DNA from: Branchiostoma floridae
Lineage: Eukaryota > Chordata > Leptocardii > Amphioxiformes > Branchiostomatidae
Assembly: GCF_000003815.2 (NCBI RefSeq)
Contig: NC_049981.1
Span: 9,119,779-9,183,778 of the forward strand
DNA length: 64,000 nt
Reading direction: 5' to 3'
Shown: one piece after another, positions 3,265 through 56,045 of the stretch
How positions within the stretch are numbered: the first letter of the stretch is position 1
Layout: each line of letters opens with the position of its first letter
Program-made: the position numbers and the translations under genes
Notes under the pieces: model-generated
What the model saw: the letters and a program-made list of their open reading frames with translations, nothing else
Told to the model about the DNA's origin: nothing
The model's database searches: none

Positions 3265-3745
3265 TACACGCTTGTAGATTAAATGTTGTTGGGTTGGTTG
3301 CAATAGTAAGACAACTTGTGCAACAATGGTTTCATTTAAGGCACTTACGTTCTACAGTAATACTTTAATAAAGAATGTTTCAAGAAATTACAAATATCGT
3401 CGACTTCAATATTGTTGTATCTGACCAAGGACGTTATATACTGACATACGAAGATAAGGCATGTCCCCTTCTTTCGACGGCGATCGTATCATGGCAACCA
3501 CTGATGTGTACCTTTGACCCGGAACTGTAACGTTACCTCTCATTGACAAGGCGATGAACATAGTTCTACAGAAATACATATAGAATACATTACTAGGAAT
3601 TACAACACATCGTCATCTTCATTACGTTGTATGAAGATAAAATGTATAAGGTACCCCTTCTTTCGACCACAATGGTATCGACCAATGCCATATTCAATTT
3701 TATCCTTTGGCCCGGAACTGTAAATAACGTAACGGAGGAGTAGCT
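3265..3745. other. Non-coding spacer
   Basis: I see no gene here. Two loosely similar blocks (near 3440-3540 and 3610-3735) share motifs such as ccccttctttcgac and gacccggaactgtaa / ggcccggaactgtaa, so this is probably an old duplication. Confidence 0.5.
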
Positions 3746-4725: not shown

Positions 4726-7700
4726 CCTGGTCAGTACATGTAAAGACAACCCTATCCACATGTGGGATGCCTTCACTGGGCAGCTCAGGTGTACATACAA
4801 GGCCTATGACCATATGGTAGGTTTATTTTAGTCTCCACTTTTTCACATAACTGCTGTTCTCATTAACATATTCATGACTGAATTTCCATATTCGTGTCAA
4901 CTTGAATCACCAGATACTGTACGTTTATAGATGCATTTGCTGTAACTGATAATATTTTAAAACAAAAATGCATTTACTGTAGCCAAGGACATTATGTGAG
5001 AAAGTCCTTCTGATATAACGTCCTTGCTGTAGCTGATGGTGTTCTAAAACATAGGGACTTTGTGGTTTGAGTAACAGCGCCATACAGCAATCAGCACTGG
5101 TACTGCAGAAGTTCTAACCTTCCATGCTGTAATGATTCTGTGAAAACTGATGGATTCCAAAAGTTTATTTCCTTTCCTACCATAATCGCATCAGATTCTA
5201 TGTTGTGTAGTCCTAATATCATGTTTATAAAGAGTCATACAGCATTTGATTCTATTTCATGTAGTAACTTGGTATTGTGTTGTCGAATATAAAGTCTTAC
5301 TCAAGTACATTCCAGAAATCTTACCTTAAGATTAGAGATTTGTACATCACAAAGAAGTTATCATCTTAGTTTTCACTGATTTTGGATCTGGAATTCCGGG
5401 TCACTTGATACAGTGGCCTTACGACCCAAAGTAGCTTACAACCGGCACAAGCAATTTTCTCTGTATAATGGCATTCTGGACTTGTAGGTAGTCTTATTTC
5501 CTGCTCCAATGACTCTTTTCAACCAGACAGAAACATCCTATATGCATGTTGTCCGTGAGGAAGGCTTGTTTTGTGGTACTTTGTGTAAGACGATTGTATA
5601 GTCTCAGACTGTTTTTGTCTACATTCTTTAGAATAGCCACCTTATCTCAAATCTTCAATTCATCCTGTACTAAACGTATTGACTTTTCTAACCTTGTTTT
5701 TTACGAAGAGTAGTCTGAGCATGGGTGCTGTCAGATATATTGGGAAACCTAACTTGTGTGTAAATTTTCATCCTTGATAAACAACCAATGAATCAATCAA
5801 GCAGTCAGTCAATCAATCAATCAGTCATCTGTCAAAGTTAAGTACAAAATTTAATGCATAGCTGCTGTAATTGTTATTGAGAACATTCTTGAGGAAGACA
5901 AAGTCAAAACCGGTCGAATACCGTCGTCTCTGAGCTGTCATTTTCCCAAGCTACGAATGATGTTATAGCAGGTTAGGTGATGTTATAAAAAAAACATTTG
6001 CCTTTTCAAAGATGGACGAAAATTCTACTACATGTATAACTGAAATTTCAACACCTGATTGGTATGAGAGGTGTGAAACCATTGGCTTATTTTTGCTGCA
6101 CCATGATCTGATTGGCTAACTTTGTGATGAGTGTTATAGTTATACCATTGGCTCATCCTTTTTGTACTATAAAAACCTGATTGGCAAGATTTATGAGACA
6201 TATGATACCATTGGCTAATCCTTGTTGTACCATCACCTGATTTGGCTAGCCTTGTGAGAAGAGTGATACGATTGGTTAAAATTTTTGTTGTACAATCACC
6301 TGATTTGACTAGCCTTATGAGAAGTGTGACACCATTTGCTAATCCTTGTTGTACCACCACCTGATTGGCTAGCTTTGTGAGAAGTGTCACACCATTGGCT
6401 AATCCTTGTTGTACCACCACCTGATTGGCTAGCTTTGTGAGAAGTGTCACACCATTGGCTAATCCTTGTTGTACCATCACCTGATTGGCTAGCCTTGTGA
6501 GAAGTGTCACACCATTGGCTAATCCTTGTTGTACCACCACCTGATTGGCTAGCCTTGTGAGAAGTGTCACACCATTGGCTAATCCTCTAATCCTTGTTGT
6601 ACCACCACCTGATTGGCTAGCCTTGTGAGAAGTGTCACACCATTGACAAGTCCTTGTTGTGCAATCACCTGATTGGCTAGCCTTGTGAGAAGTGTCACAC
6701 CATTGGATAATCCTTGTTGTGCCATCACCTAATTGGCTAGCCTTGTGAGAAGTGTCACACCATTGGCTAATCCTTGTTGTACCATCACCCGATTGGCTAG
6801 CCTTTTGAGAAGTGTCACACCATTGGCTAATCCTGTTCTACAGGATGAGGTTGTTGCAGCCCATAGCCTGACCTTTAACCCCGAGGGAAACAAGTTGTAC
6901 TGTGGGTTCAACAAAACAGTCCGGATCTTTGAGACCAACAGACCTGGCAGAGAGTGTGAGACAAGGCCAACTTATGGTACAGCATTTTGATCATTCTTAA
7001 GCATTAAGTCAACTTTATATAATAATAATCACCAGGTGTTTTTTGCCAGCCAGTAGGTACCCATTATGAGTAATGAGGCTGATTAACGTGGTCGAGGCAC
7101 CTCCTCGAGCACGGGACCCCCGTTTTACGTCCCTCCCGGAAGACGATTTCGTGGAAAGCTTCGTGAGGCTACAGCAATCCGGACGTCCTTGGTTGGTCTC
7201 CCATCCAAGCACTGTCCGGACCGCGCGTTGCTTAACTTCCGAGATCGAGGGATCGGGTGTACCAACGCGCCACGCGGCCGTAGCTATAAACTTTCAGAGC
7301 TTTTGTCCCAAACTTTTAAGTGGAGAATATATCCTGTTTTATGAATTTTGAGCCTTGAAAAATTACAAAAAGGCTTCTAAGGATTTGTTTCATTTCTTTG
7401 TAGCAAACAAAGCTGGCCAGGGTGGAATCATCTCCTGTATTGAATCAATAACCATGCCCAGACATCTATGCTTGTGGATCATACTCAAAGTCAGGTCAGT
7501 TTGTAACTGGATAAATGCGCTTATCATGTCTCTGCTTTCAGTTCAAGCCTCAAGTTTAGATTTGCATGTTCCTTACTGTGCTGTACATAAATGTACTCTG
7601 TAGTTTGTTCTCACTTTTCTGGACTAAAGCTATGTTACCATGAATAAGCATCTGGTTGAATATCATTCTGTATTGCCAAACTCTGACAATCGTCATGTAC

Positions 7701-10436: not shown

Positions 10437-10485
10437 TATATGACCAAGGAGCTTTTATTAGTAATCGAAAGCTCCATGATATGAC
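10437..10485. mobile_element. Ultrashort TIR-only insertion 1
   Basis: caaggagcttttat at 10445-10458 and the inverted cgaaagctccat near 10466-10477 form a short foldback. Near-identical 8-bp direct repeats flank it: TATATGAC (10437-10444) and GATATGAC (10478-10485). This matches the cleaner copies at 42063-42108 and 43291-43318. Confidence 0.5.
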
Positions 10486-20331: not shown

Positions 20332-23300
20332 GTTTCCCGCTTCATGTTTGAGGGGCGTGAGATCAAGCTGGACCCGACCTGCGCCGCCTTCATCACCATG
20401 AACCCCGGCTACGCAGGCCGTACCGAGCTGCCCGACAACCTGAAGGCTCTCTTCAGGCCCTTTGCCATGATGGTGCCGGACTATGGTTAGAGTTGACTCT
20501 TTCTTGTCAACTTTCAGCGTTTGACTTGCAATTGGCATTTGCATCATATGAGAAACTTAGACATCATTCCACTGATGACACATCATTTATCATTTTATAT
20601 TCATTTGTGTATTGTATTTTCTCTGAGATAATTTCAATCATAGATCCATGCATTCATCCATGCATCAATGTATCCATCCATCCACCTATCCATCCATCCA
20701 TCCATCCATCCATCCATCAGTCCATCCATCCATCCATCCATCCATTCCTTCCTTCATCTCCTCATTCCTGATGTGTTTCCCATCTGTGTCCTGTAGGTCT
20801 GATTGCAGAGGTGATCCTGTACTCTGAAGGGTTTGAGTCGTCCCGCCCCCTTGCTAAGAAGATGGTACAGATGTACAAGCTGTGCTCCGAGCAGCTGTCC
20901 CAGCAGGACCATTATGACTTCGGAATGAGAGCTGTCAAGTCTGTCCTGGTCATGGCAGGGTCCCTAAAGAGAGAAAACCCTGACAAACCCGAGGACGTTG
21001 TACTGATTCGAGCCTTGCGCGACTCAAATTTGCCAAAATTCCTGAAAAACGACGCCCAGCTTTTCCAGGTTTGTTCAAGATGGGATACAAGTTGCCATTC
21101 TTAGTTTCTTTTTAAGTATTATGTATCGTATATATACTTATGTAGCCATAATGCAGCTAGTTATCAGATTGACAGTGTAGGGTTGGGAGTTGCATGCATA
21201 TATCATGAAATATATCAACTTTGAGTGCACTTTAATTTGCAGTTATTTTTTTCCCACTAGGAGAAGAAAGGTATTACTTTCAGTGTTTTTCTTAATTTGC
21301 TAAAACGGTTGAAACAATATGCATACAGTAATCATACATTAGAATAATTTCAAAGCTAGTATGATGATCCAATAGAAAGAAAGGTAATATGTTTTCTACC
21401 AACAGAAAGAAAACTATGTTTTCCACTAAAAGTAACACTTGAGCTTACAATCTTACATTATTTTTTGTTGTTATAGGCCATTCTGCAAGACTTGTTCCCT
21501 GGTGTAGAAATCCCTGAGCACGACTACGGCCAACTGCAAGCATCAATTCAAGAGAGCATTGAAGCTAGGAACTGCCAGCCTCTGCCGCCTTTTGTGAAGA
21601 AAGTCATCCAGCTGTTCGAGACGATGCTTGTGCGTCACGGCGTGATGTTGGTGGGACCGACTGGTGGAGGAAAGACGACTGTTTTACACTCCCTGGCAGA
21701 CACGCTGGGGAAACTGAAAGAACTCGGTCAGTCCTGATTGTAATTTTCTTGGTAGAATTTGGGGTAATGCCTGGGAGTAGGTATAAACTAACCAGGCTAG
21801 TGAAAGTATTGCCTGGTCTCAACCTTCGGTCGTTGATGTATGTATGAAAGTATTGTGTTTTTTTAGTCTCATATAAAAGAATCAATCATTAACAAATGAT
21901 TTTCTGCAATTCTCTAGAACAACACTCAATTCATAATTGTTATCAATAGTATTTTGTATTTCTAAATGTAGGGTAGATTAGCCTTGCAATATTCTTATAT
22001 CTAGCAAATAAGTTCATTCGTTCATAGGAGAGTTTTAATCCCCAAGAATTGTAAACATCACACCTGTAATAGTTTTGTTTGATGTTGGTTGCAGATCTGG
22101 GTAACCCTCAGTACCAGCCTGTCAGGTTGTACACGCTGAACCCCAAGTCCATCACCATGGGTGAGCTGTACGGAGAGGTGGACCCACTTACACTGGAGTG
22201 GAAGGATGGACTCATGGGCATCTGTGTAAGTGTTATCAATGTAGAAAATGGGAAAAAAGTATTTTCATTCCTAACTATGAAGGTTGGCTGACAACATATG
22301 CAATCCAATTGTAAGCTGTTACCATAACTTTAATTGATTCTTTACGCCTATATCTTGTAAGAAAGTTATATCACTTCAGTTGGCACAACCAAAGAAAACA
22401 GTTAAGTTTGCTTGCTTGTTTTTCTCAACCTAAGTAGGGGAAGTGCCAAAATTGTTAGACTACTAGGCATAAACAGAGAAGACGTGTTGCATTTACTTGC
22501 AAGTATGTCATGTATTTGGTATATTCATCAGTACTATGTTTCCCCTCATCTAGGTAAGGGAAGCATCAAGTGACACCACTGATGACCACAAGTGGGTGAT
22601 CTGTGACGGCCCTGTTGACGCTCTGTGGATTGAGAACATGAACACCGTGCTGGACGACAACAAGATGCTGTGTCTGGCCAACAGCGAGCGCATCAAGCTT
22701 TCCCCCTGGATCCACATGGTGTTTGAAGTGCAGGACTTGGCTGTGGCCTCGCCTGCCACTGTCAGCAGGTAAGCACTGATGCTGCTATTTGATTGGCAAG
22801 TGACTATCTACATGGCTTTCCCAAGTTATCCCAAGTATGCAAATAATTTTATATCAATTTGCATACTTGTGACAATTTAATTGATCCTTGATGCTATTTT
22901 TAAAAACAAACTGAACAAACACTCAGGACTAGAACAACATCTCTTCTATCTGTGTCAGAAACATCAAGATTGAGACAAGCTGAAGGACTTAAACAGACGA
23001 AGTGGCAGAAACAGGCTGCTTGGGAAATACCCCATTTGATTTGTATTATTATAACAACAGCAATGTAATGACAATGATATCACCTTGTAACACTCAGATG
23101 TGGCATGGTGTATGTGGACCCTGATGAGCTGAGATGGAGGCCCTACGTACAGAAATGGATGGCAGAACGAGGGGCCAAGTTCAAGGAGGAGACCCAGGCG
23201 TACATCATGGATCTGTTTGACCAGTATGTGGAGAAGGGTCTGCAGTTTGTCAACAAGAAGTGTGTGCAGGCCATTAATCAGGTAAACATTGATTAAGTCT

Positions 23301-26300
23301 TTCTTAAAAAGGATCATAGTAAAGCCTATTTCATTCTCAGCCACACCAAAAAGATGTGAATTTTGTGAAACATTTAAACAATTTAGGAATAGAGGACAGT
23401 TCTGACACTTCAACTGATTACAATAAACATCTTACTGTTGAAATTGGCTTAATGTCCCATTTGTTAACGATTGTAGTAATGTGCTGTTAGGTATAGTACT
23501 TGTAGACTAAGTTAATATTCTTGTTTCCGTATTGTCTTGGTTGTGATCATACTGTGTTTTTTTCCAGGTTGACATCAGTAAGGTGAATACCCTATGCTGC
23601 CTGTTAGAGTCCCTCCTATTGGTTGGGAAGGAGGTAGACCTGAAGCAGGACCCTACCAAGCTCCACCCCCTCATCTGTACTGTGTTTGTGTTCTGCTACC
23701 TGTGGTCGGTGGGAGGGAATCTGCTGGAGCAGTATTTTGATGCATTTGAGACCTTTGTGCGACAACAGATGGAGGACAACCCTGATGCCAAGGTAGCATT
23801 GATTCATTTATTTTATAGCATCCTAATTTTGTGGCACTGTGTGTGTAAAATCAATACATTGATAATGTTTTTGAGTTTGTTTTTAAAACAATGATTTTTT
23901 AGTTTGTGAGTGAAAATGTAATCTTCCATCAAAGGAAACTTGTAACCCCAGGTTTTAAATATATTCCTAGACTATTATATCAAGCGGAACTGTCAGTGTA
24001 TTTGTTTCTCGGAAAATGATTTTGATTTTTGTCTGTGTTGTTTCTTGTCTGTCTAAGTGTCAGTAAGTTCTGCTGGTAAGCAAGAGTTTACCAAAATTCT
24101 TATGTATTTTATAACAGTTGGAAGGAATTGTGTTGATTCCCTCAATTGGTAAAAGTATGACGAAAATTCAAAAACAGCAAGCACATACACAATGTACATG
24201 TAATCACCATAAATACATGTATGTACAGTTACTGTAAGAATACCAAACCTTTAGTTCATTTCATATTTAGATAGTGAAAACAATGTATTGATTTCCCATC
24301 CACAACAGCTGTATGCCGGAGGTGACTTGTGGAGTTGCTTCATTGATTTTGACTCCAAACGGATGGACATCTGGGAGAAGAGAGTCCCAGTCTTCAACTA
24401 CTCCGCCGAGGTTCCGTTTTTTGATATCCTGGTTCCCACCATCGATACAGTACGCTTTGGTTACCTGCTGGAGAAACTGCTGGATGTGGGAAGATCAGTG
24501 CTGTACACCGGAACCACTGGTGTTGGCAAGGTATGGATTTAAGTGAATCAACTGTGTTTATTTTGTCTCCCTTACCTCTCCTTAGTCCTTGCTTCTGCGT
24601 CAACCTTCCTAACTATAATTATAGCGTTGTAACAAAGTATCTTGTTCAAAATATTGAAAATTATGTTTAGAAATATAGGTTGAGTCATATAATACTGAAA
24701 GCAATTGCCTCTAAAACCCACTTGAACATAAAGAATACAAAGCTATGAACAGATATTGAACCCCAGATACATATGCCAAGTATGTAACACATATAATGTT
24801 CACTAATTTTCACATTGTACAATGTACTTATGATTTCCCTGCATACATGTACTTATGATTTCCCTGCCCCCCTCCCCAGTCTGTGATTGCCCGAGCCATT
24901 CTGAATGACCTGGCTGAGCCTAAAAGCTACGTGCCCGTCACCATCAACTTCTCAGCACAGACCAGCAGTAAACGCACACAGGAGATTGTGGAGGGAAAAC
25001 TGGAGAAGAAGAGGAAGAACATTCTTGGTATGCTATTGTCTTCATGTCTGTCTTCCCTTTAGCAATGTTTTGAGGGATGGTGTCTTGAAATTATCATTCT
25101 TTTTCTGGCACATGTCATCACATGACTGCTAGATTATTGAAGCAATAGTCTTGCTTAACAACTTCAAATTCTCCTTAGAAAAATGATTTTTTTTATTCCG
25201 CAATCGGACATGCTTTAGATAGATGGGTTCTGTCTGTTTTTTATCCAAGTTTCTGTATGTTCTGACTGAGGTTGTTTACCATCTAACTGAAGTCTTCTAT
25301 TTCTGACTGCCCTGTCAGGGCTTTGATCATGGCAAATTTTTACAGGACTGTTACTCAATGGACTGTCCCAGTCAGACTACCCTCCATAGCTGCAAAGATA
25401 CTTTTTTTTTTCATACCATGGTCCATTTTCCTCACAGGTGCACCAATCAACAAGAAGGTTGTCATCTTCATTGATGACCTGAACATGCCCAAGTTGGACA
25501 CCTATGGCTCACAGCCACCCATTGAACTCCTGAGACAGTACCAGGACTTTGGGGGCTTCTATGATAGGGAGAAACTCTTCTGGAAAGAAATCAAGGTAAT
25601 GGCGTGTTTTTTTATCACGAATTATCAACAGTGTCTACGTATTCTTTCAAAATTTGTTTTCTGCACTTGTGACGTTGTTGTATCACCTAAATCGTGTGTT
25701 GATTCCAGGACGTGACGTTGTGTGCGGCTTGTGCCCCTCCTGGCGGAGGTCGTAACCCTGTGACCCCTCGCCTGATTCGCCACTTTAGCATGCTGTGTCT
25801 GCCGTCACCTTCAGAGCACAGCCTCAAGCACATCTTCAAGGTAACAAGAACAGCTGGAGGCTTCATTTTTGGCAACACCCCAGGGGTGAAAGCTTCCAAA
25901 ACCTTAGTCAGTAAAACAAGAGCTTAGTAATACCTAAATTCAGGCAGAGGTGATATCGTAGCAATATGTGTACAATGTACAAGCTACCTGTCACCAAAAA
26001 ATTATCATCACAGCATATCCAGAACATGATGTTAGTATCAAAACCATCAGTTCTATTGCAGTACCACTGAAAGCCACTATGATAAAAGATTTCCTACATT
26101 TTTTTGACACCTACCCACATAGTTACCAACTATTATACAGGTCAATCCCCAACTTCTCGTTATTTTTCCCCAAAAGAAATGCACCTACCTGGTAGCCACA
26201 AATGGCTCCAGAAACATAATGAAGGTAATGAGATCATGTTTTTCTTGTTTCCAGGCCATCCTGTCTGGCTTCTTGAAGGACTTCCCAGCTCCGGTCAAAC

Positions 26301-27619
26301 AGAGTGTTGAGTCTGTTGTCTCTGCTGCTGTGGAGATCTACGAACGGCTCAGCACAGATCTGCTCCCAACCCCGGCCAAATCCCACTACGTCTTCAACCT
26401 CAGGGATCTGTCCAAGTGTATCCAAGGTAAGAATGAGAAATTTGCTTCTTGGACCTGTAAGAAGATATAACTGTCACATCCTAGATATGAGAAACAGACT
26501 GGTGAAACATCTTGATGTCTACAATTCTGAACTAAGGTTTTTTGTAAATGGAAATGTGCCTTGTTTAGGCCTGTTAAAGTTGTGACCTTTATAACAAGAC
26601 AAATATTGAATTAGATTCATTATCTTTCCTTAAGGCATCCTGCAGAGTGATGCCAGTACCATCCGTGAACAGCTTCACATCTTCCGACTCTTCTGCCACG
26701 AGTGTCAGCGAGTCTTCCACGATCGACTCATCAATGAAGAGGACAAACTGTTCTTCAACACTATCCTGTCAGAAATGTCATCCAAGCATTTTGGACAGGT
26801 CTGTAGACTGTGCTATTCAAATTGAAGCAATGAAATTCATTAACTCAACAGAGCCAATTTGATGTTAGTAGCAGCAGTTTCAATACATCCAAAAGTGCTC
26901 ATCACTAAATTTTCCCTTTGTTCATTTATTCAATTGCTCATTCATCCATCCCCATCCATCTGTTCATTCTTTCATCGACTTTCTTGACACTCATTCATTC
27001 ACTTACATGTTGTATTTAGCAGTGGCTGTAAAAGTTACAACATAAGCATTGCATGCAAAGCAATTGTATATTGTGTTTACTATTAACTTAAGTTTGATTT
27101 CTTCATATGTTTTCTACACAGAATGTTGAACCAGAGACATTTGTTAACAACCCAATCATCTTTGGAGACTTCATCAAGATGGGCGCACCGAAGAACGACC
27201 GTCAGTATGAGGAGTTGAGTGACATGAAGAAGCTGAAGAACGTCTTGAGCGACTACTTAGACGACTACAACATGTCCTCCTCCAAGGAGATGAAGCTGGT
27301 GTTCTTCGTGGACGCCATCCAGCACGTGTCCCGTATCGTCCGCATGATCCGCCAGGAGCGCGGGAACGCCCTTCTGGTGGGGGTGGGGGGCACGGGGAAG
27401 CAGTCGCTGACTCGCCTCGCCTGCCACATCTGCGGCTACAACTGCTTCCAGATCGAGCTCAGCAGGGGGTACAACTACGACGCCTTCCACGAGGATCTGA
27501 AGAAGTTGTACGACATGGCTGGTCTGAAGGGGGAGAACACAGTCTTCCTCTTCACTGACACACAGATCGTTGTAGAAGAGTTCCTCGAGGACATCAACAA
27601 CATCTTGAACTCAGGAGAG
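20332..27619 (+). CDS. DNAH6: DNAH6-like axonemal dynein heavy chain, central motor fragment
   Basis: Axonemal inner-arm dynein heavy chains are AAA+ motors of cilia. Fourteen exons join in frame with no stop, about 975 of the ~4,100 residues expected: 20332-20485, 20797-21068, 21477-21726, 22095-22225, 22554-22768, 23098-23281, 23568-23792, 24309-24530, 24880-25027, 25438-25595, 25709-25840, 26255-26426, 26635-26798 and 27122-27619. Landmarks: late AAA1 ([17 protein letters not shown]), AAA2 P-loop GPTGGGKTT and [16 protein letters not shown]3 P-loop GTTGVGKS split by an intron, Walker [19 protein letters not shown], and AAA4 P-loop GVGGTGKQS with [27 protein letters not shown] and [11 protein letters not shown] point to DNAH6 rather than DNAH3 or DNAH7. 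The tail, AAA1 P-loop, stalk, AAA5-6 and C-terminus are absent from the window. The last donor (gag|gtttgt) is weak. Confidence 0.9.
20641..20765. repeat. (ATCC)n microsatellite in DNAH6 intron
   Basis: Long catccatc run with few interruptions, between the first two visible DNAH6 exons. Confidence 0.95.
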
Positions 27620-27839
27620 GTTTGTAGCACCAACAACAAGTTTTAAACTTGGTTGCAATGACATTGTGATTGTTGCATGGCTATTTATGTTTTGTAAACA
27701 GTTTGATGAGGTTAATATATACTCAATATATAGTATATATCAATATATACTGGGTTCTTAGACTGCTCTATCATGGCCCGTTGTGTCGAAAAGAACTGGT
27801 ATACATTTGCTATAATTCTCTATCAATAGCACTGCCTCT

Positions 27840-31907: not shown

Positions 31908-33125
31908 AATGGACTCAGCTCCAAAGACAGGCACCGTGCATGTTACTGATTCAGAACCAAGAACAGGAACAGTGCATGGTGCTGATACTAAAGACAGACA
32001 TGGTGTGTAGTATGGATACATGGTTCAGTACCAATGACAGGCACAGCGTTTGCTACTGATACGTGATTCAGTACCAAGGACAGGCACAGCGTGTGGTACT
32101 GATACATGAATCAGTACCAAGGACAAGCACAGCGTGTGGTACTGACGCATAATTCAGTACCAATGATAGGCACAGTGTGTGGTACTGATACATGAAGCAG
32201 TACCAATGACAGGCACAGCGTTTGCTACTGATACATGATTCAGTACCAATGACAGGCACAGCGTGTGGTACTGATACATGAATCAGTACCAATGACAGGC
32301 ACAGCGTTTGCTACTGATACATGAATCAGTACCAAGGACAGGCACAGCGTGTGGTACTGATACATGAATTAGTACCAATGACAGGCACAGCGTGTGGTAC
32401 TGATACATGAAGCAGTACCAATGACAGGCACAGCGTGTGGTACTGATACATGAAGCAGTACCAATGACAGGCACAGCGTGTGGTACTGATACGTGAATCA
32501 GTACCAATGACAGGCACAGCATGTGGTACTGATACATGAAGCAGTACCAATGACAGGCACAGCGTGTGGTACTGATACATGAATCAATACCAAGGACAGG
32601 CACAGCGTGTGGTACTGATACATGAAGCAGTACCAATGACAGGCACAGCGTGTGGTACTGATACGTGAATCAGTACCAATGACAGGCACAGCATGTGGTA
32701 CTGATACATGAAGCAGTACCAATGACAGGCACAGCGTGTGGTACTGATACATGAATCAATACCAAGGACAGGCACAGCGTGTGGTACTGATACGTGAATC
32801 AGTACCAATGACAGGCACAGCATGTGGTACTGATACATGAATCAGTACCAAGGACAGGCACAGCGTGTGGTACTGATACATGAAGCAGTACCAATGACAG
32901 GCACAGCGTGTGGTACTGATACGTGAATCAGTACCAAGGACAGGCACAGCGTGTGGTACTGATACATGAATCAGTACCAAGGACAGGCACAGCGTGTGGT
33001 ACTGATACATGAATCAGTACCAAGGACAGGCACAGCGTGTGGTACTGATACGTGAATCAGTGCTAAGAACAGGCACAGTGTGTGGTACTCCTACATGTAC
33101 GTGAATCAGTACCAAGGACAGGCTC
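31908..33125. repeat. 43-bp minisatellite
   Basis: About 28 tandem copies of gtactgatacatgaatcagt followed by accaatgacaggcacagcgtgtg. Each unit contains the dyad gtactgatacatgaatcagtac. Pairs of alternating variants (gaagcagtaccaatg and gaatcagtaccaagg) give a higher-order period of 86. Because 43 is not a multiple of 3, the long minus-strand frames repeat every 129 bases; they are artefacts. Confidence 0.95.
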
Positions 33126-34118: not shown

Positions 34119-35480
34119 ACTCGTCCGACCAACTGTATTCTAATATGTACGGTGTAATCATGATGTCAAACTGTATCTATATGTACGGTGTGATCATGAT
34201 ATCAAACTGCATTCTATATGTACGGTATAATCATGATGTCAAACTGTATTCTATATGTACGGTATAATCATGATGTCAAACTGTATTCTATACGTACGAT
34301 GTGATCATAATGTCAAACTGTATTCTATATGTACGGTGTGATCATGATATCAAACTGCATTCTATATGTACGGTGTAATCATGATGTCAAACTGTATTCT
34401 ATATGTACGGTGTAATCATGATGTCAAACTGTATTCTATATGTACGGTGTAATCATGATGTCAAACTGTATTCTATATGTACTGTGTAATCATGAAGTCA
34501 AACTGTATTCTATATGTACGGTGTAATCATGATGTCAAACTGTATTCTATATATACGGTGTAATCATGATGTCAAACTGTATTCTATACGTACGGTGTAA
34601 TCATGATGTCAAACTGTATTCTATATGCACGGTGTAATCATGATGTCAAACTGTATTCTATATGTACGGTGTAATCATGATGTCAAACTGTATTCTATAT
34701 GTACGGTGTAATCATGATGTCAAACTGTATTCTATACGTACGATGTGATCATAATGTCAAACTGTATTCTATATGTACAGTGTAATCATGATGTCAAACT
34801 GTATTCTATATGTACGGTGTGATCATAATGTCAAACTGTATTCTATATGTACGGTGTGATCATGATATCAAACTGTATTCTATATGTACGGTGTAATCAT
34901 GATGTCAAACTGTATTCTATATGTACGGTGTGATCATGATGTCAAACTGCATTCTATATGTACTGTGTAATCATGATGTCAAACTGTATTCTATATGTAC
35001 TGTGTAATCATGAAGTCAAACTGTATTCTATATGTACGGTGTGATCATAATGTCAAACTGTATTCTATATGTACGGTGTAATCATGATGTCAAACTGTAT
35101 TCTATATGTACGGTGTGATCATAACGTCAAACTGTATTCTATATGTACGGTGTAATCATGATGTCAAACTGTATTCTATATGTACGGTGTGATCATAATG
35201 TCAAACTGTATTCTATATGTACGGTGTAATCATGATGTCAAACTGTATTCTATATGTACGGTGTAATCATGATGTAGAACTGTATTCCATATCACTGTGT
35301 GATCATGATATAGAACTGTATTATATGCTTACGGTGTAATCATGATGTCAAACTGTATTCTATATGTACGGTGTGATCATGATGTCAAACTATATTCTAT
35401 ACGTAAGGTGTAATCGTGAGGTTGAACTGTATCCTAGACGTATACGTACCATGTGACGATGATATTAAACTATATTCTAT
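34119..35480. repeat. 37-bp minisatellite
   Basis: About 36 copies of tgtattctatatgtacggtg followed by taatcatgatgtcaaac. Unit variants (tgatcataatg, tactgtg, tacgtacgatgtg) recur at intervals, which suggests multi-unit amplification. The right edge decays gradually from about 35270 and the left edge is lost in the gap. Confidence 0.95.
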
Positions 35481-42062: not shown

Positions 42063-42108
42063 GAACTAACCAAGGAGCTTTTATCTGATAAAAGCTCCTT
42101 GAACTAAC
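42063..42108. mobile_element. Ultrashort TIR-only insertion 2
   Basis: CAAGGAGCTTTTATC (42071-42085), one base, then its exact reverse complement. The 30-bp insert 42071-42100 is flanked by perfect 8-bp direct repeats GAACTAAC (42063-42070 and 42101-42108). Ends starting CA and an 8-bp duplication fit hAT transposons, but no interior remains. Confidence 0.75.
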
Positions 42109-42801: not shown

Positions 42802-43470
42802 GAAGGCCCCGCTATTGAATATTAATTAGACTTCGTCTTCCTTTTCGCTGATTGGCTGGCTCGTTAAATTCATTTAACTTGCACGTGCGGGGCTCTGCGG
42901 GGTGACGTCACGGCAAAAGGCAGAAAGAAACCAATTTTCCCTCAGAAAAGTGCTGAAATTTACTGTATATAGTAAAGCGCTGGTTGCAAGTTAGCAATTT
43001 ACGTGTTTGTAAGCATAAGTCCGTGAGATTTCTGAAACAATAGCAGTTCTGTGATAAACGGAACCTTCTAAAAACGTACGGAGCTAACAGCGCAGGGAAA
43101 ATATACCATCGCATCACAGAAATGCCCCTAAAAACTGATACAATAAGCCTTCTGAATAGCCCAAAGTGCAAGAGTTTCCCCCAACGGGGCTCTGCCCCTG
43201 GACCATGCCGGGCCGGGGCCTTCGGCGTTCTTCGGTGGACCGCGGGCCACGTGTGCCGACGCTGTAAAAAATTATGGCGGGAACACTGCAGTATATACAA
43301 AAGCTCCTTGGTATATACGGAATCGTGAGGCCCCGCTTATGAATATTAATTAGCCTTCGCCCTCTTCGCACACAGGTGTGGGCTCCGTGCGGGGTCACGG
43401 AAGGTCACGTCAGGAGGCCAAAACAAAACAAATTTCCCCTCAGAAAAGTGCCAAAATTAATCATTTTAAA
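42802..43470. repeat. Two diverged copies of a GC/AT-mosaic repeat
   Basis: Blocks starting ggccccgctattgaatatta (about 42804) and ggccccgcttatgaatatta (about 43329) share cttcg, gtgcggggt, gtcacg and tccctcagaaaagtgc in order. No gene is apparent. Confidence 0.6.
43291..43318. mobile_element. Ultrashort TIR-only insertion 3
   Basis: Perfect 8-bp direct repeats GTATATAC (43291-43298 and 43311-43318) enclose just aaaagctccttg, one inverted-repeat end of the same family as the insertion at 42071-42100. It could be an internally deleted copy or an imprecise excision product. Confidence 0.6.
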
Positions 43471-49848: not shown

Positions 49849-52800
49849 TCACCGATACAGCGTACAATACACAGCATCATGGTAACTGTAAAATGTCTGT
49901 ATGACCCCACAGCTTACATTTGATGATGGTGGTGCAATGTAAACATGGTCAATAAGAGTTCCTTTCATGGTTGTAGGATCTTCCACCAACTGTTCGAAAT
50001 TGTTTGTCTCAAAGAACTTCTGTATCTTTTTGTTGTCTTCACCTGATAACAAATTCTCATTAAAGTCCCCAAGAAAGATTGTGGTTGTTCGCTTCACTGT
50101 GGCCAACAAGTACTGCATCAATTTCTCTACATTGACTATGAATGTGTCTTTTTTCACACTAGGTGGCCTGTAAACAGGTACAATGAGAATCTCTATGTCC
50201 TCCACAGACATTAGCATAACCACACATTCCAGGCTAATGTCATCTGGAATGGGTATTTCATAACAGCTGTATCCATTACGGACATAAACTGCCACTCCAC
50301 CATGTGGTGAACTTCTAGTCATAGACTCTTCCTCACAAACATGTGTTCTGTCTTTGCGAAACACATCAAAGTTTTCTAGCTGCACCTTAGAATCCTGCAC
50401 ATCTTCCGATAACCATGTCTCGGTCAAGCATATGATATCAGCTTTGAGCAGACAGGTAGACTTTAGACTTTCAAAGTTACTTACTAGATTTTGAGTATTG
50501 TGATGGACAATTTTCAAGACCGTATTGCTTTCAGACCTGTCATCGGCATTTTTGAACGGGTCAGATCTAAACTGCAAGTGCATCATCTCTTTGACTGCTT
50601 TCTCTACATGCTCATCACAGTAGATTGACTCCTGCTTATAGTCCGTGATGTGGAGACCACTTAAGGAACATACCCTGCTTAACGCCACATATGCCATACC
50701 TGATGCAAACACTTTTTTCATGGAGACAACCGCTTCGGGAACAGTCATGCCCTGTACTTTGTGTACCGTACAAGCCCAAGCTAGCTTGAGGGGAATCTGA
50801 TAACGTTTAACTTTACTTTTGTTACTCAAGTTGTCCTCGATCTGACGTATCGGCACTGAATTGCCAGGTAGACTGCTAGGAACCACACTTTTTTTCCTTT
50901 CAAGAGCACCTATCTTTGGGTTATCAAACTGCACAAAGACAGTTGAATCCTGACCACCTGTTACACCGGTCACTGTTCCAAATGCACCATTCACAAGACC
51001 GTCCTTAACATTGACATTTCTACAGAGCATGACACGAGCGCCTACCCCAACTTGGACCCTATCGGGCAGATCATCTTTTCCCCCTTTAGCGAGATCTCGT
51101 TTTTTCATCGAACCTGTGGTGGGATCTTTGACAAAATCAGAGGCTTCAAAACATCTAATATCTGAACACCTGAGATTCAACATCTTGTCATTATGGTCTC
51201 CCACAGCTTTCTTGGTGGAAAAGATGTGAAGTGCATCTTTAGGATAATCATCTGATTCAAAGTCAAGACACAGCACCCTTGACGACAGAGTTTTGTCATC
51301 TTCATCTGAAAGTTTCTCCTTTTTTTTCTTTACTCTCATTCTATTCAAAAGCTTTGCAAAAGCAGCATCATCCTTCTGCCTCATGATTTCCTCAAGTTCA
51401 ACAACCTCAAAGATTGGATTCCACAAGTCAATAATATCTGTTCCCTTGTAGAGACTCTGTCCCCTGACTGGAGGTATCTGATACATGTCGCCTACTGCCA
51501 AGATGCTGACATTTCCAAAGTTTGCACTTGACCTTGACTGTTTCAGTTGACTCAACCTACCATGAATATAAGACATGAGCATTTTGTCAATCATCGACAC
51601 TTCATCTACAATCACAATTTTGAGGCTTTCATATTGCGCACGCAATGTGTTAAGGGTACTTTCAGACAGCGGCTGATACGTCTTCGAGACACGCATCAGA
51701 TGGAACGCATGGTGCACCGTGCTCCCCCCAATGTTGAATGCAGCCGTTCCTGTGGGTGCAGTAAGAAGGACAGAGACATTATCAGGGTTTTCTTGTGTCT
51801 GTTGCAGTAACTTGGTAGCCTCATAGAATATGCATTTGATGAGATGGCTCTTTCCAGTCCCCGCACCACCCGTTACAAAAATATGAAAGGGATCTGGTCG
51901 TTTTCCCTGTGCAGTCTCCATACACCACTTCCGTACAAAATAGAAGACCCTCTGTTGCATTGGGTTGAGTGACTGCATCATGGGGATCGCAGCTTCTTCT
52001 GAGATCTGCTTCTGGCAGGCCTCTATGGCAAAGCTTTTCTCTTTTGATTTGTCAGTTGTTGCTAGGTCAGGAATGTCGTCCTCAGTGCCTTCATCATCAT
52101 CATTCCCCTCGTTTTCTCCCCTCTTATCTAGGCACTCGAGTCTTTCTTGCTCCACTTCGGGGAAGATCTGGGCCCAAGCGTCATCTAGATTACCGTCTTC
52201 CACGTCTTTACGAGCCTGCTCAATTTCCTCGACATTTTGCTCAAATTTACACCTGTTCCCATGCACAATGACATTAATTCTCTCCTCTGACAAAGGAGCA
52301 AACCCATCAGAGTAGTATTCTTCATACTTTGCATACTGTGGTGGTTTCAACTGTGTGTCAAGATAGTGTGGCAAGTACAACTTGAGCAATGTCAAGTAGA
52401 ATCGCTCTGGCTCTTTCATTTTGTTAAACTTAGCGTAACGGATGACTGCAGGCTGAGATCTTGTACGCTTTTGAACAACCCCCAAATTATCCCTCAAGTT
52501 ATGTTTTGCTGCTCCTCTGGACGACTGCTCGGCATCATCTTGCATGCCCGAACAAGAAACGACGCGATATTCCGAGACAAACTCTGCAGCACACATTGAT
52601 AGGAAGGGTTCTTCCAGTGGCCTTGCCTTGTATCGATCCATAATGCTTGGCATCCAGATGCTTGTTTCATCACAGTTTCCCTCACTTGCAAGCCTTTGAA
52701 TCTCTGCCAAAGGTTTCGACAAGCGATTGGCTTGCTCATCTGTCGGTATGAATGTGACTGCTCTTGAGCACTCCTTCAACTTCAGGCTACAGACCCGATA

Positions 52801-55550
52801 GACCGCCTCCTGAGCACTCACTTCCCTATGGTGAAGGTAGGCACTGCCAACTTTTCTCATTTCTGTAACCACATCTTCGTTACCTTCCCTTGCCTCTTTC
52901 TGAGCCTCTTTGAGCAGCTTTCCCATTTCTCTTTCTGCTTTGCTTATGTACGATACAATGTACTTGACACAACTGTATGCATCGAAGATATATTGGATGT
53001 CCATGTTACCATTCCACGCACGGAGCAGATGCGGATTGAAATTGTTCACCCACATGTCCTTTGGCTGACGTCTGAGGAATACTTGCTTCCTAGTTGCCAT
53101 CAAGTTCAAAGCGTCACACAACTGCGCAGTGGTGAGGTTTGCCTCCCTGAGAACGTCGTCAGTAGAGCACTTCTCTGGCTCTTTGTTCTTGTCCAAAACA
53201 TCCCAGAACTTCTTCAGGTTGGATTCGGCTTGCTTCTTCCTCTCAGCATTGGATGCCGATTCTTCATCGGTCAGGTCCTGCTGGGGCACAGGGCTGCACA
53301 GAAATGTCTGCTTCACTGGCGGTTTAGGGAATCCGAACCTACAGACCTTGCCACCTTTCTTGCAAGATGATGTATGACCCTTTCGGTGCATTTGAACTTG
53401 GCTAACTATGTCAAATAACTCCTTATCTGTTTCTGGGTTTGGCAGCTGACAGCACACATATTTGTCCACAAAAGAGCAGATCTCTTGTTCAGAATTTACA
53501 CCCAATTTTGGAGCATCTTTCACCCAAAACAAACAATGTATATGAGGTGAGCCCCTTTGCTGGAACTCAGTCCTCGTGAACGTGTCTACAACCTCACCGA
53601 TCGGTTGCGATGGAGATTTAATGAGATGTTTAAACAACAGCTTGACTCTGTGATCAAACATGCGAGCGGCAGTGACAGGGTTACTCTTCAAAATGTTGCA
53701 ACGCTCTTCCCACGACAACTCGCTTACTGGTACTGTGCCATGATCCTGGCGAATCGCCTCTAACACTTCTGGCCAGCGCAAATCTGCCGCAGAAAATGTA
53801 GCAAACCAGGTTGGAATTCCCAACTGTCTTATCATCGCGAACAATTCATTTAGCGTCTTGTCCCAGAACTGCGGAGTACCCCTGACTGGCTGAAGGAAGC
53901 GATAGCCCTGGTCTGACTTTAGAATGGACTGTAAGTCCTCTTTGTTTGACAACATACCAGCAGATATTTCGCGGCCATTGCTTGTTATTGGCGAGCCCTT
54001 GCGCATAGATATGGAAATATTCGACTGTATGAAGTGCAGCTCTGTTACATACTGTGCAAAGAATATGTAGCTAGTGTCGCTCGCGAACCGCGCATCTGCA
54101 CCCATGAGGCGCGCCTTGAAGTACTTGCTAGGCGTAATTCGTACATCACGATCGTCATTAAAAGAAAACTTGCCTGTAGGGAATTGAACGGGGAAGGACA
54201 TTGCCTCTCCTCCAACCTCCTGAAACACAGAAATAGGCTTCTTCCCCTCTCCTGGAGCCACGCACATGATGCGTTCATCGTGGTGGTCTAGGAAATCCTG
54301 ACCTATGTCTACTGGCTGGAGGCAAGTATCGTGTGGCAATCCCCGTAAGAGGCTGTCCAGTTCCTCTTCCTCAATCAGATTGGCTTCTTCGATCGCTTCT
54401 TCCACATTCACCTGTCCGGCTTCTTCGATCGTCTCTTCAACATTCACCTGTCCGGCTTCTTCGATCGTCTCTTCAACATTCATTTGTCCAGCTTCTTCGA
54501 TCACCTCTTCCACATTCACCTGTCCGGCTTCTTCAATCGTCTCTTCAACATTCACCTGTCTGGCTTCTTCGATCGCCTCTTCCAAATTCACCTGTCGAAG
54601 TCGACGAAGAACGTCATCCATTTCATCATCTTCCATTCCATCTCCAGTCGGTCCTACCACATCGTTGCCCTCCTCATTGACAAACTCGCTGTGCTCTGCG
54701 GTTGTACCAACTTCTAAGTTGTCATTCCCTCCATGTTCAGCATCAGATTGTTCAACAAGCCCTTCTCCATTGTTCCACGACAAAGTCCAGTCTGCATCAA
54801 TAGACGTACCGCTGTAATGTTCATTATTTTCTACAAGGTACTTCAGTGCAACATCCACCTTCAATGGACTGATTTGTCTATACATATGATACGCATTGTA
54901 CTGAAGCTTCCTCTTAAGTTTGACTTTGATTAACTGAGCTTCTGAAGGCATTCTGGGAAGGATTGCATGTGTTTCGCTCACATCTGCTGGAACGCACACA
55001 ACTGGGCCAAGAACTCCTTTCTGACCCCCTTTCGGGAGAGCTGCAACTTTCATGAATGGTATTCTCTTGGCAATGAGTTGCGACTCCAGAGTATTGAGAC
55101 TCTTTAGCTCAGGAGGTATTTCTGGGAGCTTCATCTTGTTACTCTGGGCCTCGTATGGAATTGTCTTTTTTTTTGACAAGTGTTCATGACAACAATGACA
55201 TATCCACTCTTGGCCCCTGGAAGAGTTTGCTGTGGGACACACATGTAGGGTGCATTCTATATTGCATTGATGTACATATGTACCTGTTAAACAGTGCTTA
55301 ACAGCCTCAACATACTTATCTTTGTCACAGATTACAACTTGATTGCAAAACAAAAGCCTATGACATACAGTGCAGACATATTCTGGCCCATTTTTGCATT
55401 CGATCTGGAACTTTTCGATGTCCCTCTCAACATCAGCTAAATTCTGGTGCTTTTCTCTGTTAATCTGCACGTTTCTTACTTTCAAATGTCTATGATTTGG
55501 ATCTGTGTGATATTTATCTCTTTCATTGATTAAGATGAAAGATGCCGGAT
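49849..55550 (-). CDS. Helitron/Helentron replicase: HUH Rep, PIF1 helicase, C-terminal endonuclease
   Basis: One uninterrupted frame of about 1,900 codons; TGA at 49849-49851. The frame stays open upstream past a TTG at 55485 (reading INERDKYHTDPNHRHLKVRN) into the gap at 55551, so the start is unseen. Numbered from 55485: zinc-ribbon-like cysteines (VCTVCHRLLFC, WICHCCHEHL) at 37-110; acidic 12-residue repeats at about 296-367; Helitron-like Rep with PTWFATFSAADLRWPE (~560), HUH motif RGSPHIHCLFW (~645) and tyrosine motif CVKYIVSYISK (~842); PIF1-type superfamily 1B helicase with Walker A GGAGTGKS (~1207), DEVSM (~1294), GDMYQIPPV and TVHKVQGMT; endonuclease/exonuclease/phosphatase domain from ~1657 (HNTQNL, CLTETWL, LGDFNEN, LIDHVYI, SYHDAV). 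The usual Asp before the final His is Tyr. It would drive rolling-circle transposition. Confidence 0.92.
54385..54602 (-). repeat. 36-bp in-frame minisatellite in the Helitron gene
   Basis: Six to seven units encode variants of GQVNVEETIEEA (12 residues) in a strongly acidic linker before the Rep domain. The period preserves the frame. Unit variants (QMNVEE, RQVNLEE) show the copies have begun to diverge. Confidence 0.9.
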
Positions 55551-55650
55551 NNNNNNNNNNNNNNNNNNNNNNNNNNNNNNNNNNNNNNNNNNNNNNNNNN
55601 NNNNNNNNNNNNNNNNNNNNNNNNNNNNNNNNNNNNNNNNNNNNNNNNNN
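55551..55650. other. Assembly gap (100 N placeholder)
   Basis: Exactly 100 N. Removes the start of the Helitron protein. Confidence 0.95.
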
Positions 55651-55659
55651 CTGAGGGAC

Positions 55660-56045
55660 CGTGGTGGTACATTTACTCCTCTATTTGTTCCATTTCTACG
55701 ACTTTTCCAGCGATTTTTCTAGCGATCCGGAGTCTTGTAGAGACTAGATGTGTCACTATTCTTCCTGGAGTCCGGGTGATTTGTAGAGAAGCACCAATTC
55801 TAAACCGAAGGATTTGCACCATCTCACACCGCACTATTGCACATGTGGGGGTTCTTTAACGTGCGTGGGGTGTGGCTCTTTCCAAACACGGGACCTCCAT
55901 TTACCGTCCTATCCGAGGGACGGCCCTAGCCGAAGCGAGGTACTCATTTTCATCTGAGTAAAGTGAGGAAAGCCGTGTAAAGTATCTTTCCCAAGGGAAC
56001 AAGATCGGTGTCACGGCAGCCAAACACGCTGCCGCTGCGTCAAAC
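55660..56045 (-). mobile_element. SINE-like element
   Basis: On minus it contains cttgggaaagatactttaca, cggctttcctcactttactc and gacggtaaatggaggtcccg, similar to the SINE body at 1420-1460. The tRNA-like head is not clear, so this may be a truncated or composite copy. Confidence 0.5.

Follow-up and report, generated by a model that had tools for sequence, protein, structure and literature searches.

What leaves a pair of inverted ends in a genome with nothing between them? The question is raised by a near-perfect palindrome, closely flanked by direct repeats, in the 64-kb stretch of Branchiostoma floridae DNA analysed here in its entirety (the window; Table 1). The sequence-only reading had taken it for a 30-bp palindrome between perfect 8-bp duplications, and had suggested either that a hAT transposase moves end-only substrates or that abortive events leave only ends behind. 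The palindrome stood, at 31 bp, but the exact duplication is of 7 bp, the apparent 8-bp repeat GAACTAAC being produced by a G that closes the insert and another that stands before the left AACTAAC copy. The two relatives that it had pointed out, at 10437-10485 and 43291-43318, were likewise genuine sites whose measurements needed correction, the former having an insert of 34 bp rather than 33 and flanks that match at 7/7 rather than 7 of 8, and the latter an insert of 13 bp rather than 12 between perfect repeats. We argue below that such palindromes are, very probably, footprints left when a P-superfamily DNA transposon excised, and that they reflect neither a hAT element nor mobility of the ends themselves.

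Table 1. Coordinates of the probable footprints and of coding features (positions refer to the window unless locus L115, on contig C19, or L116, on contig C11, is given)
Feature	Position	Strand	Remark
Left target-site duplication AACTAAC	42064-42070		
Excision footprint, 31 bp	42071-42101		near-perfect palindrome CAAGGAGCTTTTATC T GATAAAAGCTCCTTG
Right target-site duplication AACTAAC	42102-42108		
Left target-site duplication ATATGAC	10438-10444		
Footprint, 34 bp	10445-10478		with substitutions (older or diverged)
Right target-site duplication ATATGAC	10479-10485		
Left target-site duplication GTATATA	43291-43297		
One-sided footprint, 13 bp	43298-43310		CAAAAGCTCCTTG
Right target-site duplication GTATATA	43311-43317		perfect copy of left
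Fourth, related footprint-like site	4977-5033		CTGTAGC, 43 bp, CTGTAGC; exact 7-bp duplication
767-aa open frame	L115:2892-5195	+	PF12560 and catalytic domain (residues 555-703)
PF12560 domain of second P-type copy	L116:6248-7009	-	
Second gene, convergent to transposase	L115:7874-8962	-	
Second gene, convergent to transposase	L116:543-1598	+	

With up to 3 mismatches allowed, the 14-mer CAAGGAGCTTTTAT was not enriched in the window (12 matches, 4 of them with 0-1 mismatch, against a shuffle mean of 7.5, with 9/100 shuffles reaching 12). A scan of the window that was independent of the palindrome sequence (inverted ends of 10 bases with at most 1 mismatch, an insert of 16-60 bp, a minimum under which the 13-bp site falls, and a position flush inside an exact direct repeat) found 3 places with a 7-bp repeat, at 10445, 42071 and, newly, 4984, compared to 0 in 10 first-order Markov shuffles. 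With an 8-bp repeat it found 4 places, all within a 43-bp tandem array near 32 kb (shuffles 0), while repeats of 5, 6 and 9 bp gave 2, 11 and 0 places as raw counts. The new insert (4984-5026) has ends CAAGGAC(A/G)TTAT, of the CAAGGACGTTATATCAG type, and an end of this type is present also at 3426. Other features of the window are two minisatellite arrays (32015-33097, 25 copies of a 43-bp unit with internal dyads; 34131-35436, 35 copies of a 37-bp unit), a dynein heavy chain gene of axonemal type, its exons recognised by Pfam motor domains (20772-27646, + strand), and a Helitron with a 1943-aa open frame carrying Helitron_like_N, PIF1 helicase and endonuclease domains (49849-55680, - strand).

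Copies in the genome assembly (431 contigs, 513.4 Mb in all) are not few: the exact 14-mer occurs 1895 times (964 + 931) and its reversed control 0 times, and the search for the end near its inverted copy, which the sequence-only reading had proposed, found CAAGGAGCT and its inverse copy at most 48 bp apart in 640 places, again with 0 for the reversed pattern. The first 50 of these, all on contigs 1 and 2 and hence a sample by position, were taken together with their flanks. An exact 7-bp duplication surrounds 36 of the 50, compared to 1 of 2450 pairs in which the left flank of one site was set against the right flank of another, so flanks are duplicated far beyond chance and the target-site duplications, as had been claimed, are real and belong to insertions at independent sites. 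Flanks matched at 6/7 in 8 more, an exact 8-bp duplication was seen in 1 (L052), and 5 (L033, L039, L057, L077 and L085) had no duplication. The 36 exact targets tend to begin with G (19) T (30) and to end with A (28) C (15), and three bases outside, T is found in 26 on one side and A in 28 on the other, a bias that makes the target preference roughly palindromic, TNNGTTWAACNNA.

Ends without a partner were sampled as 20 further 14-mers outside the palindrome list, taken in order along contig 1. An exact 7-bp repeat was present within 40 bp downstream in 10 (L110 among these is of low complexity; L111 is identical in sequence to the left end of L049) and a 6-of-7 repeat in 3, and we read these as scars from which one end has largely been lost; the remaining 7 had no repeat within that distance. 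A further 30 loci that overlapped the two samples were left out of the counts. The 14-mer does not always mark a scar, since at six loci (L001, L004, L007, L026, L099 and L106) the end sequence is part of a longer dispersed repeat whose flanks are conserved (AGCTTCCAC...). At L077 and L086 the palindromes resemble each other in a long hairpin interior (ATCATCA...TGATGAT), have flanks like AGTAAC/AGTTAC, and may be a separate kind of repeat.

The junctions within the 50 palindromes are varied in sequence but limited in extent. Of the 31 nt of the full terminal repeat, 9-17 are kept in 94 of the 100 ends, 9 being the minimum that the search required. A further 3 ends have 18 nt, through an additional G, perhaps inserted as a single base, and 3 have 19 nt, these being joins of 17 + 15 in which the match is prolonged by chance into the other arm. 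There are 37 distinct junctions; one of them, the interior of the footprint at 42071-42101, recurs identically in 5 of the 50, three recur in 3 each and three in 2 each. Taking a 17-nt end as the model, 12 of the 50 have overlaps of 1-2 nt, 14 are blunt and 24 carry insertions. Overlaps of 1-2 nt are not in excess of what all possible trims would give (12/26 vs 38/81), that is, their frequency is that of random trims, and a preference for microhomology is thus not demonstrated. Lengths in the sample are 20-40 bp, although the search pattern permitted 18-48, and each of the 7 palindromes above 34 bp contains an insertion; over all sites seen the scars are of 13-40 bp and mostly palindromic.

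A search for a full element with the same ends, also proposed at the outset, was successful, and what it found is of P rather than hAT type. An 8442-bp element on contig C19 (10308832-10317273, L115) has the same 31 nt, CAAGGAGCTTTTATCAGGAGGAGAGAGCAAG, at both ends, is flanked by a CTCTAAC duplication and matches the TNP-like RNase H N-terminal (PF21787, E 8.6e-22), RNase H C-terminal (PF21789, E 3e-8) and GTP-binding insertion (PF21788, E 1.9e-5; one frame above the cut-off, one below) families. These domains lie in separate frames which would be joined by splicing of introns, and the arrangement of a predicted RNase H core interrupted by a GTP-binding insertion assigns this parent-type element to the P superfamily. 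Its inverted ends, beginning with CA and about 31 nt long, are those expected of that superfamily, but the 8-bp duplication also expected is absent, as it is of 7 bp here (CTCTAAC), in a shorter element (ATAAAAC) and in 36 of the 50 scars. That shorter element (L047, C1:9181309-9182496) is of 1188 bp, has 31-nt inverted ends that are 90% alike, a 7-bp duplication and a subterminal inverted repeat, and belongs with two other copies to a 1.19-kb family whose members are 97-98% mutually identical, suggesting recent movement. Its first part is 82% identical to the C19 element (575-column alignment) and its last 115 bp are 83% identical, and as it aligns to both ends it looks like an internally deleted relative.

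Two other candidates were set aside: the facing ends 5.2 kb apart at C1:15283410-15288654 (L049), first taken as a full element, were dropped because each end reads as a separate footprint, and C1:13800331-13801574 (L048) is without a matching duplication. A genome search with PF21787 gave 3 matches, namely the C19 element, C11:17076605 (L116) and a partial one at C6:14994104 (L117); no pair of terminal inverted repeats with a 7- or 8-bp duplication was seen at the latter two in the stretches covered. Genome searches with PF12017 and PF21788 gave no match, and neither did their controls, and comparison of the C19 transposase frame with sequences of solved structures gave no meaningful match (best E 0.73). 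Scanning 8 frames of the C19 element gave no THAP match at E ≤1, though a short exon could escape such a scan.

Two target copies around terminal bases alone are what an excision footprint consists of, and this is what is found here. An element would insert and create a 7-bp target duplication; on its exit the transposase would cut one strand at the boundary of transposon and flank and the other about 17 nt inside the 31-nt repeat, so that each side of the empty site would carry a single-stranded tail with at most 17 nt from the end, and end joining would then trim, fill and join the tails, at times with a short insertion, giving a scar between two target copies. The sequence evidence behind this comprises the duplications and shared ends, the varied junctions, the limit near 17 nt and the same-ended element with P-type transposase domains, and the point near 17 nt at which retained ends stop would be the counterpart of a 17-nt staggered cut. 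In Drosophila the P transposase makes its cut 17 nt within the 31-bp repeat (PMC7776569), and Drosophila P excision junctions, as tabulated in PMC2895639 (Table 1), consist of a target copy, up to 17 nt, an overlap or insertion, up to 17 nt and a target copy. By analogy with these, the cut positions and the repair pathway would be the same in Branchiostoma, and we infer that a transposase of the C19 type made the scars. The sites described here share with those junctions the two target copies around no more than 17 nt per end, with overlaps, blunt joins or insertions, and the fit is close apart from the duplication of 7 rather than 8 bp; the Drosophila junctions came from experimental excision in repair mutants whereas these are natural sites. 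Against an origin by excision are the 5 of 50 without a duplication, the long interiors at L077 and L086, the six ends of 18 or 19 nt, the overlaps of 1-2 nt that do not exceed random expectation, the 7-bp duplication, the genome searches with PF12017 and PF21788 that gave no match, and the recurrence of some junctions.

It is this recurrence at unrelated sites, together with the individual duplication at each of the 36, that would speak for the palindromes being mobile themselves, as end-only substrates of a transposase or ultrashort MITEs. We consider this improbable, since 37 distinct junctions among 50, along with one-sided remnants, are unlike copies of one element, and the junctions that recur belong to the small set obtainable by simply trimming one end. 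Like MITEs the scars are short, with inverted ends and target duplications, but they are far shorter than MITEs usually are and have no common interior; many copies of one interior are the mark of the 1.19-kb family (3 copies) and not of the palindromes. Drosophila P transposase, moreover, requires internal binding sites, with binding adjacent to the repeats mentioned in PMC1562414. Variable junctions are expected from end joining of a cut donor site, and a mobile substrate made of ends alone is therefore not needed; this half of the original suggestion is disfavoured.

Its other half, that abortive events leave only ends behind, pointed the right way, though in the form of abortive gap repair, where templated synthesis after excision stops early and leaves stubs of both ends, it is very unlikely as the main route. 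When spacing of facing pairs was followed without a length limit for the first 100 of the 1895 14-mers, 14 pairs lay under 100 bp, 12 of them at 29-38 bp. Of the other two, the 86-bp pair is a 27-bp scar plus another end, and the 51-bp pair (L009) is an internal deletion retaining 31 nt on the left and 17 nt on the right, which, like the internally deleted 1.19-kb family, is what interrupted synthesis could give. Stubs of every length would however be predicted, and there was no facing pair between 87 and 1186 bp among these 100 14-mers, while the ends of the 50 sampled palindromes stop near 17 nt. Remnants of a hAT element, finally, were suggested by the earlier 8-bp reading of the flanks, and we give them almost no credence: the duplication is of 7 bp in 36 of 50 and of 8 bp in 1, and the sole coding element seen to share these ends carries P-type domains, so that a hAT origin is rejected. 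Excision of hAT elements alters flank bases and does not leave up to 17 bases of each end.

Excision by a P-type transposase thus being preferred, the parent-type element can be compared with its relatives. It resembles the P superfamily and THAP9-related transposons in its 31-nt inverted repeat (the length in D. melanogaster), in PF21787, PF21788 and PF21789 and in having internally deleted relatives. It differs from them in its 7-bp duplication (8 bp is given for Drosophila P, Anopheles P and zebrafish Pdre2 in PMC7776569, PMC1562414 and PMC10983969), in a second gene and in a RAG1-type N-terminal domain, with THAP not found in the scanned frames. The RAG1 N-terminal family PF12560 matches residues 29-115 of the 767-aa frame of the C19 element (E 7.1e-8, 32.8 bits, cut-off 23.3). 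The C11 copy also has it (E 7.2e-10; 57% identical to the C19 domain over 115 residues), there in a frame distinct from the catalytic one, the two overlapping in a repetitive stretch. The second-gene proteins of the two elements are 54% identical and have no Pfam match at E ≤1. A genome-wide search placed PF12560 at 7 or more sites including the C19 element, and as the C11 copy is absent from that list 7 is a lower bound. Long frames at two of the six other places (L119 and L121) had no P-type part recognisable by eye; that of L121 has a RING-like stretch at its end.

PF12560 at the N-terminus of a transposon protein recalls the Chapa domain and the Aplysia N-RAG-TP, which is made up of RAG1 N-terminal-like sequence (PMC8355894). 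According to Kapitonov and Koonin in 2015 (PMC4411706), the only transposable elements known at that time to carry the Chapa domain were those of the Transib superfamily, Chapaevs included; unlike in those elements, PF12560 here shares a reading frame with a P-superfamily catalytic domain. It seems to us an even chance that there is a chordate clade of the P superfamily in which a RAG1-type N-terminal zinc domain replaces THAP and a second gene is conserved, that the domain has crossed between two transposase superfamilies, and that this clade, with which N-RAG-TP may be compared, may represent the sort of element that supplied the N-terminus of RAG1. Excision scars are known as a class; within the limited literature covered, what appears new is how many occur naturally in one chordate genome, together with the 7-bp length of the duplication and the RAG1-like N-terminus. 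Neither P footprints surveyed across a natural genome nor a RAG1 N-terminal domain on a P transposase was reported there, which is weak evidence of absence from print; Repbase may list the parent-type element. The 14-mer was likewise not found in the literature searched.

What looked like an element without an interior becomes a readable record, in which each scar preserves one target site and one end-joining outcome, so that natural scars could show, without experiment, which targets a P-type transposase chooses and what spectrum of repair follows it. For annotators it is a warning that short palindromes with duplications may be the scars of larger elements. If the proposed clade is real, its hundreds to thousands of natural scars would record 17-nt cutting of the P type, and end joining, outside insects. 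The findings suggest that the unusual 17-nt stagger known from the P transposase of Drosophila is ancient within the superfamily whereas the length of the duplication is not, and a RAG1-like N-terminus on a P-type transposase, should it hold in other species, would alter the list of elements that might have given the V(D)J recombinase its N-terminal part.
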